DNA of 64,000 nucleotides, taken from assembly GCA_026874595.1 (NCBI GenBank), contig CM049316.1, forward strand, positions 67,542,676 through 67,606,675, read 5' to 3'. Source of the stretch: Sipunculus nudus (Eukaryota > Annelida > Sipuncula > Golfingiida > Sipunculidae). Under the pieces are notes generated by a model. The model was not told the DNA's origin. It saw nothing but the letters and a program-made list of their open reading frames with translations, and made no database searches. Below are positions 34,220 through 37,200 of the stretch, piece after piece. Within the stretch, counting starts at the first letter, position 1. Each line of letters begins with the position of its first letter. A program made the translations under genes and the position numbers.

Positions 34220-37200
34220 GTAAGATTGACGGGTTTTCAACACCAGAGCAGGCACAAAGCTAGGGATCAGACTAACGAGAGCGTAATGTCAGGGGTTTGA
34301 AATTTGGAATTGAATGCACAAAACTCGCATTAGTCTGTTTATAATTATCTGTCTTGTGCGAGCCCTGTTGATGAGACAAGGGGAATCCTGCTGTAAAATG
34401 CGGTTAAAACAGTTATTATGTTATAGGGCACCGACACATTATTTGGCATAAGGATTATAATTACATCACATGTGCATTAAGCAATAAAATAACATATTTT
34501 ACATTTTATTTTATGATTTTTACGTTTCAGCAAAAATTGGAACCCCGCTGTTTCTGACCTCAACCTAGGGTTGAAGGGAGTGAATATTGATGACGTAGGA
34601 GATGGGACCAAGGCTACGTCATCACGACCTCATTACGAGGGTCCACCCGTCCGCCCACTCGTCATGCCCATATACCAGTCCTCTACCTACATCGTAGAAT
34701 CCGTGGACGAGTATCTACAGATACTGAAACATGTAAGTGTGGTCCGTCGATGAGTATCTACAGATACTGAAATATGTAAGTGTAGTCCGTGCACCAGTAT
34801 CTGTAGATACTGAAATATGTAAGTGTGGTCCGTGCACCAGTATCTGCAGATACTGAAATATATAAGTGTCGTCCGTGCATGAGTATCTACTGATACTGAA
34901 ACATGTAAGTGTGGTCCATGCACGAGTATCTACAGATACTGAATCATGTAAGTGCGGTCCGTGCACGAGTATCTACAGATACTGAAACATGTGCGTGTGG
35001 TCCGTGCACGAGCATCTACAGATACTGAAACATTTAAGTGTAGTCCGTGCACCAGTATCTGCAGATACTGAAATATATAAGTGTGGTCCGTGCATGAGTA
35101 TCTACTGATACTGAAACATGTAAGTGTGGTCCATGCACGAGTATCTACAGATACTGAATCATGTAAGTGTGGTCCGTGCACGAGTATCTACAGATACTGA
35201 AACATGTGCGTGTGGTCCATGCACGAGCATCTACAGATACTGAAACATGTAAGTGTAGTCCGTGCACCAGTATCTGCAGATACTGAAACATGTAAGTGTG
35301 GTCCGTGCACGAGTATCTACAGATACTGAAACATGTAAGTATGGTTAATGCACGAGTATCTACAGATACTGAAACATGTAAGTGTGGTCCGTGCACGAGT
35401 ATCTACATATACTGAAATATGTAAGTGTGGTCCATGCACGAGTATATACAGATACTGAAACATGTAAATGTTTATATACAAATAAAACCGTATATTTAAT
35501 GGTTCATTAGAATATTTCTACTTCGTATTTGCTCGTCATAAATAGATGTGAATATACATGACTGCATTGACTCAAGAAAATGCAGGGGATGAGGTGGCAT
35601 CTCAAGTAATATCCGACGTATAGTATAGATACAGATAAATTCAGTATTTTTTTACTGTTCTACTACTATTCAGTATTAATTACTATGAAACTTATGTTTA
35701 AAAGAAAATTCAAGGTCAATCCATTCTTCCCTTTTAGAGAATCCATTTAATCAAAAATAATTGTTAAATATGAATGTTACTAAAAATGGACCAATCATTG
35801 TAATTTTTTTAATGTACAATAACATTTGAAAAGAAAGGGTTTGACACTGGCATCAAACAGATTCTTAAACTAGAGAACCATACGAACAGTTTCATACCAG
35901 TCATCCTATGTATATATTATGGAACCACTATCTCCCTAAATATGGCCCATTTTTAATGCCTCGTACAGCACTAATACTGAAATATGTAAATGCGTTCCAT
36001 GGAAGAGTATCTACACATACTAAACTTCTGAGAGAGATATAATCGGACCAGTACAAATATTGATGAACGTTAGTGTATTGAGATGTATCTACAGCTATCA
36101 AAACATGCAAGTACAGTCCAGGAACTAGATCTATAGACATAGGTACAGAAAAATGTAAGTCAGTGGACGAGTAACTACATATATTAAATCATGTAATCAT
36201 GTAAGCACTGAAACATGTTAGTGTGTTCCGTGTACGAGTATCTTCAGATACTGAAACATGTAAGTGTAGTCCGTAGATAAGTATCTACAGATACTGAAAC
36301 ATCTAAGTGTAGTCCGTGGAGGAGTATCTACAGATATTACATCATGTAAGTGTAGTCCGTGGATGAAACATAAGTGAAGTCCATGGGCGGGGTATCTATG
36401 GATATTGGAATATGTATGTGTTGTCCTTTGATGGTATCCATAAATACTGGACCATGTTAGTGTACTCCATGGCCGAGTATTTACAGATACTGAAGCAAGT
36501 AAATGTGGTCCATGGACGAGTAACTGCAGATAATGAAACAAGTGTTTTGATTTCGATTTTTAATAGAAATTTATCAATTATAAACTCCAGCCGCTGGGAC
36601 ATTTCTTTCAATTAAATAAAACAATTCAATTTTGATAAGGTTTCCTTTGTACTTATACCTGTTTAGCAAAATAATTATGTTATTATCATGCTTAATCCTG
36701 ATTATATGGCATTTTTATCGCACCATATATAAACAAAAGGTAAAACAAAAACGAACAAAAAATGAAGAAAAGTGCCTGAGAACCAAACAGTTTTATTTCT
36801 TTGGCTATATGAGTTCATTTTTATTTGTAGCAAGGTTACATTTACAGTCGTCTGGGAACCCCAAACCTAGACAGTGTAGAATGCACGGTGAAAGACTTAG
36901 AAGGCGGCGCTGGAAGCTTGGCCTTCACTTCAGGTATGGCTGCCATATCCACAGCCTTCCTCACGTTACTCAAGGCAGGGGATCACGTGGTACGTATCCC
37001 ATAAGCCACCGCTTCCGTATGTACAATTTTGTAAAATGAATCATTTGTATCACGTTTGTATCTATAATACGGAAATTTAAGATCTGTCTTAACACTACTA
37101 CCACTACCACTACTACTACTAAAAATAATAATTATAATAATAACAAAAATAATATTAATATTAAAAATAATAATATTAATAATCATAATCGTAAATCAAT

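Follow-up and report, generated by a model that had tools for sequence, protein, structure and literature searches.

An intronic minisatellite of splice-junction copies and its possible role as an exchange site among clustered methionine-gamma-lyase-like genes of Sipunculus nudus

In gene B of the locus studied here, the intron behind exon 2 opens with a long row of copies of the end of that exon, each with the place of a 5′ splice site. Does such an array act in splicing, does it serve some other process, or is it a passive repeat? A preliminary description had suggested that its copy number could tune splicing or isoforms. The stretch of DNA analyzed (C11:67542676-67606675, 64,000 nucleotides; "the window," whose coordinates are used for all features) belongs to a 1.43-Gb genome with 153 contigs. 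Our preferred reading, to which we assign a probability of roughly 0.6, is that a neutral minisatellite was seeded at a splice junction and then became the exchange site of the paralogous genes.

Junction arrays in a cluster of PLP-dependent enzyme genes

The window lies in a cluster of genes (A to F) for PLP-dependent Cys/Met enzymes resembling methionine gamma-lyase. Gene A runs downwards from ∼7360 on the minus strand, and B, C, and D begin at ∼34532, ∼48352, and ∼61445, respectively; E (∼74488) and F (∼146670, minus strand) lie beyond the window in the same cluster. In a profile search, exons 2 to 4 of B matched PF01053 (Cys_Met_Meta_PP) with 103.4 bits against a curated cut-off of 27, and the top PDB match for these enzymes was L-methionine gamma-lyase. 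Elsewhere in the genome, PF01053 was matched by one gene on C4 and by several long frames on further contigs. Seven uninterrupted PF01053 frames of 398 amino acids each and near-equal scores (L023 to L029, on C61, C72, C74, C77, C83, C89, and C90) have a bacterial look and perhaps represent symbiont or contaminant sequence in the assembly. A protein search of the genome with exon 2 returned five copies, those of B to F, every one in the cluster; a transposed exon 2 was rejected, as none was found outside the cluster by this search.

Exon 2 of B (34531..34732, +; translation KNWNPAVS...) is preceded by a CAG acceptor and followed by GTAAGT, and its last 30 nt form the first unit of the array. 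The real 5′ splice site, CAT/GTAAGT (34733..34738, +), leads to exon 3 (36831..36989, +), which begins with QGYIYSRLG and belongs to the Cys_Met_Meta_PP match together with exons 2 and 4. Coding exons 4 to 10 (37467..43950, +) are open and conserved in B to F; their limits are those of the matched codons, and the splice ends are approximate. They comprise exons 4 to 7 (37467-37601, 38937-39107, 40154-40267, and 40620-40742, +) and exons 8 to 10 (42088-42222, 42915-43058, and 43894-43950, +). Exon 2 of C lies at 48351..48552 (+) and that of D at 61444..61645 (+). No exon 1 was recovered upstream by cross-gene translation search. The exon of B at 40154-40267 encodes the motif TKYLGGHSD, the lysine of which we take to be the PLP-binding residue. 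F likewise has TKYLGGHSD and E has SKYLGGHSD; C (53237-53350, +) and, beyond the window, D have TTYLGGHSE. Because threonine replaces the expected PLP lysine, C and D may be inactive enzymes, judging from sequence. Gene A (about 897-7361, −) has stops within exons 6 and 7, an unmatched exon 10, and a truncated exon 2, and looks like a pseudogene.

Tandem Repeats Finder (TRF) called the core array of B as 18.0 copies of a 43-bp unit at 34700..35471 (+), with 88% matches and a score of 1201. Each unit consists of 30 nt from the end of exon 2, i.e., its last ten codons, followed by 13 nt of intron start with the donor; unit 1 is the genuine exon end with its GTAAGT. The approximately 18 copies of the preliminary description, their composition, and its dozen or so perfect donors were all borne out, GTAAGT being intact in 12 of the 18 core units when read in register. 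Units 4 to 8 and 9 to 13 are a near-identical 215-bp block repeat. The single interval proposed for the array (34702..36545) proved to be composite: the core is followed by a break of ∼480 bp, where the matches of every 43-mer stayed below 24 of 43, and then by older, decayed copies (35956..36554, +; 43-mers with 24 to 40 of 43 matches), within which TRF called 3.7 copies at 36207-36363. A 30-bp tandem repeat of about 7 to 8 copies at 25099-25339 appeared by eye to be unrelated to the 43-bp unit.

The array was found in all five genes that retain the end of exon 2. The announced counts of about 5 in C and about 9 in D agree with the 4.9 units called by TRF in C (48519..48728, +; GTAAGT in three of five units) and the 8.9 in D (61612..61993, +), where units 7 to 9 are identical letter for letter to units 3 to 5 of C. 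Outside the window, and in addition to the arrays described before, E carries 23.7 units and F 11.8 on the opposite strand. With a unit in the range of about 10 to 100 bp and a copy number that varies between paralogues, the array has the properties of a minisatellite. Counting the real donors, a register-free scan gave 15 GTAAGT in the array of B, 3 in C, 5 in D, 12 in E, and 4 in F; F thus keeps the motif in just 4 of ∼12 units, its real donor among them. In D, the real donor is GTACGT (61646..61651, +), with five GTAAGT decoys downstream. Gene A has lost the whole array. Only 63 nt of its exon 2 remain (7298..7360, −). The match of A to B breaks off at 34594 and resumes at 36545, so that about 1.95 kb, starting inside exon 2 and ending where the decayed copies end, has been deleted from A.

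Within the reach of the searches, the unit is confined to the cluster. A search of the 1.43 Gb with a 30-base core, allowing up to 3 mismatches, returned at least 51 matches, and all 51 lie within C11:67577384-67689168; the reversed-pattern control returned none, and chance is thereby excluded as the origin of the repeats. At least 16 matches were obtained by DNA-similarity search, and 16 of 16 were in the cluster. A dispersed repeat or transposon, which the preliminary description had named as an outcome that would speak against its reading, was therefore rejected: among the matches listed by either search (51/51 and 16/16), none was at an unrelated locus. At a cystathionine gamma-lyase-like gene on C4, taken as an outgroup, 30 kb contained no match to the unit even when 8 mismatches were allowed, and no counterpart of exon 2 was found there either.

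A second junction array is present upstream of exon 7. In B, TRF called 57-bp units made of the exon 7 acceptor and the start of exon 7 (40430..40649, +), and A has 57-bp units of the same array at 3285-3453 (−). Two degraded copies each occur in C (about 53460-53607, +) and D; none was found in E and F. The local copy score was 60 in A and 45 in B, and none of the control windows (952 and 944, respectively) attained it. The score of 60 in C and D was reached by 19 of 949 and 23 of 949 windows; F scored 21 (10 of 953) and E 12 (910 of 944). When 16 junction sides of B (exons 2 to 9) were compared, a nearby copy was seen at two of them only, with scores of 82 for the donor of exon 2 and 49 (in the query window used there) for the acceptor of exon 7; the remainder scored 14 to 22. 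The nulls for C, D, and this table of B exons are inflated, because the windows hold a paralogue's junction or the query's own place. That donor arrays grow downstream and acceptor arrays upstream is a prediction of tolerance by selection, since the copy on the exon side is left untouched in these directions. An acceptor-side array in the same genes suggests that tandem duplication across a splice junction may be a more general and under-recorded route to intronic repeats.

Decoy donors and the splicing of exon 2

No codon is split at the exon 2/exon 3 junction (phase 0). Reading on from the real donor of B meets a TGA at 18 nt, and splicing from any downstream unit would therefore include a stop; the corresponding distances to the first in-frame stop are 78 nt in C, 36 nt in D, 123 nt in E, and 78 nt in F. 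Not one of the 73 downstream units of B to F gave an extension that was both in frame and free of stops. By the end of exon 3, 72 of the 73 meet a stop, and the exception (unit 2 of C) is out of frame. The unit-by-unit donor calls follow the core match, and after indels (units 19 to 24 of E and 10 to 12 of F) they are off by at least one base, and two GTAAGT, a copy in F and another among the decayed units of B, were missed; the result on stops is independent of register, and a scan of all GTAAGT of the arrays irrespective of register agreed with it. The idea that every third added unit would provide an in-frame isoform thus failed, and array copy number is unable to tune protein isoforms. What survives of the proposed tuning is at most an influence on the ratio of productive to non-productive message, as use of a decoy could yield non-productive RNA only. 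A candidate micro-exon of 12 nt per unit (CTACAG/ATACTGAAACAT/GTAAGT) had by eye no clear pyrimidine tract.

Donor strength was estimated with a simple model of the duplex with the U1 5′ end, which gave −7.9 kcal/mol for the real donor of each of B, C, E, and F and −3.7 kcal/mol for that of D. The row of equal decoys envisaged in the preliminary description holds in large part in this model: among the 33 downstream GTAAGT units found in register in B to F, 24 equal the real donor of B at −7.9 kcal/mol, and the other nine are weaker, at −6.7 to −7.6 kcal/mol. In D, the decoys (−7.6 to −7.9 kcal/mol) are stronger than the gene's own donor. Such values, and the finding that every decoy choice examined would disable the message, lend some credit to the idea that the array regulates splicing, with decoys competing for U1 snRNP and copy number setting the productive/non-productive ratio. 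Variation within the arrays argues against it. In 49 well-registered units, variation per cell was 0.068 in the GTAAGT columns versus 0.063 in the other 37 columns, and the donor block ranked 27th of 38 six-column blocks counted from the least variable. There is on this ground no sign of selection keeping the donors; they are neither kept nor purged in this test and drift at the rate of the rest of the unit. The wide span of copy number among the paralogues and the few GTAAGT left in F are further points against regulation, which we regard as distinctly improbable.

A role of RNA structure appears far less probable still. Here the palindromic units (AGTATCTACAGATACT) would pair with each other and so hide or present donors. 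Three units folded more stably than shuffled sequences (z −4.24) and two units did so to a lesser degree (z −1.66), but a single unit was unremarkable (z −0.95), and folding of this kind is expected of tandem near-palindromes.

We infer that the decoys are mostly ignored. Their effect on splicing would be small where the first donor is intact; for D, we predict that decoys are used to some extent, non-productively. Should decoys disturb any of the genes, D is the first candidate according to the duplex model, because its own donor is weaker than they are. A minisatellite at a splice junction offers a natural test of how the spliceosome chooses among equal donors when all but the first are unproductive. 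Copy numbers of 4.9 to 23.7 in five paralogues, one of which (D) has a weakened true donor, amount to a dose series provided by nature.

Exon 2 divergence and a change of partners at the array

The paralogues are not equally diverged along their length. In all seven pairs among B to F that include E or F, pS was 0.12 to 0.23 in exon 2 versus 0.72 to 0.78 in the remaining eight exons combined (p 0.0002 by permutation, the lowest value attainable with 5,000 shuffles), and pN was 0.03 to 0.07 in exon 2 versus 0.14 to 0.17 elsewhere. A-E and A-F showed the contrast as well, on 21 codons of exon 2 (0.14 versus 0.71 and 0.73, respectively). Without its last ten codons, i.e., those of the repeat, exon 2 still gave 0.12 to 0.28 over the ten B-F pairs. 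Pairs with E or F thus display the hallmark of gene conversion or concerted evolution, namely, much lower divergence at neutral sites in one part of the paralogues than in the rest. Homogenization is clear only for these pairs, because the contrast was absent from B-C (0.24 versus 0.28, p 0.32) and B-D (0.20 versus 0.27, p 0.18), as well as from A-B, A-C, and A-D (p 0.18, 0.37, and 0.19, respectively). In C-D it was reversed, with pS of 0.20 in exon 2 versus 0.01 in the other exons. Along exon 2, the mean pairwise difference in 21-nt bins was 0.10 to 0.13 in the first third and 0.03 to 0.09 later; a fall of divergence towards the array, as expected of conversion from there, is weak.

On the two sides of the array, different genes belong together. 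Upstream of exon 2 the groups are {A,B}, {C,D,E}, and {F}; downstream of the array they are {A,B,C,D}, {E}, and {F}. Within 5 kb upstream of exon 2, only A-B, C-D, C-E, and D-E could be aligned. Downstream, A, B, C, and D are mutually alignable, and E and F match the others or each other over 251 to 719 nt only, exons included. C resembles E upstream (2,787 of 4,990 nt alignable, 77.9% identity) and B downstream (5,564 of 7,403 nt alignable, 75.2% identity). Gene C thus switches partner, from the E side to the B side, at exon 2 and the array, an argument that is independent of D.

Non-coding units carry traces of sharing, too. A unit type with five changes (G15/A20/T25/C34/T39) occurs as D3, E3, E4, E13, and F5, in genes of which E and F are otherwise saturated, and C at unit position 4 is found in units 3 to 18 of B and also in E6 to E8. 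The exon of B has G at position 4, unlike its own units 3 to 18, and therefore exon and array were not always exchanged. The real-donor change C34 of D and the exon change T18 of C recur in array units of the same gene, and the exon change A18 of D does not; the recurring changes are suggestive of exchange between exon and array, or could be coincidence.

These data bear on the simplest alternative, a plain neutral minisatellite with no role in recombination, in which case the mosaics would be independent of it and exon 2 would be under unusual synonymous constraint. Introns commonly contain minisatellites, donors in the array show no selection, and among A to D only C-D departs from an absence of exon 2 contrast. 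The lowering of pN in exon 2 in step with pS, however, fits a younger common ancestor and not synonymous constraint; moreover, the paralogues share non-coding units, and 5′ and 3′ partners switch at the array. We therefore consider this alternative rather unlikely.

The downstream half of D matches a tract of C (48601..56100, +) at 99.6 to 100% in ten 750-bp bins with gaps left out, and this tract starts inside the C array. The remainder of the C/D repeated segment, from ∼56.1 to 61.78 kb, is 93.4 to 98.2% identical in eight bins, gaps again left out. On the left side of the array, identity between C and D is 77.5% over the alignable part and 83% around exon 2. The 13-kb segment between the arrays of C and D is repeated between those of D and E, with both ends in arrays. 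Unequal exchange between arrays would produce such a repeat, followed by a later exchange over its first 7.5 kb.

A misassembly would account for the same segment if D and the 13-kb tandem copy were two haplotypes joined inside the array. Both levels of C-D identity, over the first 7.5 kb and over the remainder, are possible for alleles of a very heterozygous animal, and repeats of this kind are able to cause misjoins. Against it stand the two distinct tiers of identity along the segment and the independence from D of the main evidence, namely, the exon 2 contrast among B, C, E, and F and the switch of C from E upstream to B downstream. An artefact is in our judgment an unlikely explanation.

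A putative exchange site and its relation to known systems

The course of events that we favor begins with a 43-bp stretch over the exon 2/intron 2 junction, which would have been duplicated in tandem and grown into an intronic minisatellite. The intronic copies would be nearly neutral, because only the exon-proximal copy must work, and would drift and turn over; the absence of extra donor conservation, the variable copy number, and the block duplication support such turnover. The array would then offer diverged, clustered paralogues hundreds of bases of common sequence at one fixed point, and we propose that it is for this reason a site of recombination between them. Genes with saturated divergence in their remaining exons would have had exon 2 and the array homogenized, and at this place 5′ halves would have been linked to new 3′ partners. 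The mosaic junction itself is located at exon 2 and the array; the order of these steps and the part of the array as cause are a reconstruction, and a breakpoint lying in the array is not proof that the array was the trigger.

A bolder version is tentative, and we think the odds are somewhat against it: the intronic copies may form a recombination adaptor, seeded by the splice junction and providing a safe landing pad for crossovers in exon shuffling. Exchange within the array would leave the exon/donor junction intact, because each copy brings along the exon end and the splice site of the gene itself. If so, 5′ modules (promoter, exon 1, and exon 2) could be swapped onto divergent catalytic 3′ modules with splicing unbroken. 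The locus is, in this respect, also a natural test of whether short repeats in introns steer the shuffling of exons among paralogues.

The nearest known case of a splice donor multiplied by a minisatellite is that of the human 6-16/IFI6 (G1P3) gene, which Turri, Cuin and Porter reportedly described in 1995 (NAR 23:1854) as having multiple splice donor sites. The IFI6 unit is 12 bp long, so that extra units add whole codons and give in-frame protein variants. The present unit likewise holds the end of its host exon and the donor. In contrast to IFI6, it measures 43 bp and yields no open in-frame extension, hence no protein variants of that type, and the array is shared by five paralogues and marks their exchange breakpoints.

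Duplication of a short exonic segment with splice-site sequence is also known from intron gain, which, according to the review PMC3443670, can proceed by tandem genomic duplication of an AGGT-containing segment. Unlike in that process, no new intron is apparent here; an existing donor was copied many times into its own intron, and no coding segment was found between units in the interval from exon 2 to exon 3 of B to F.

In the open-licence literature searched, no report was found of a splice-junction array as an exchange site of paralogues, and the combination of a repeat of the gene's own splice junction with paralogue exchange points did not appear there. The proposed function has precedents. 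For the sea urchin Sp185/333 genes and for KIR, with minisatellites in the first intron, the relevant part of PMC5103432 presents repeats as proposed promoters of crossing over, gene conversion, and domain shuffling. Like those, the array described here lies in or beside clustered genes and has a proposed role in exchange; in that part of PMC5103432 their repeats are not described as copies of a host splice junction, whereas here the repeat appears to have been seeded from the exon that it borders.
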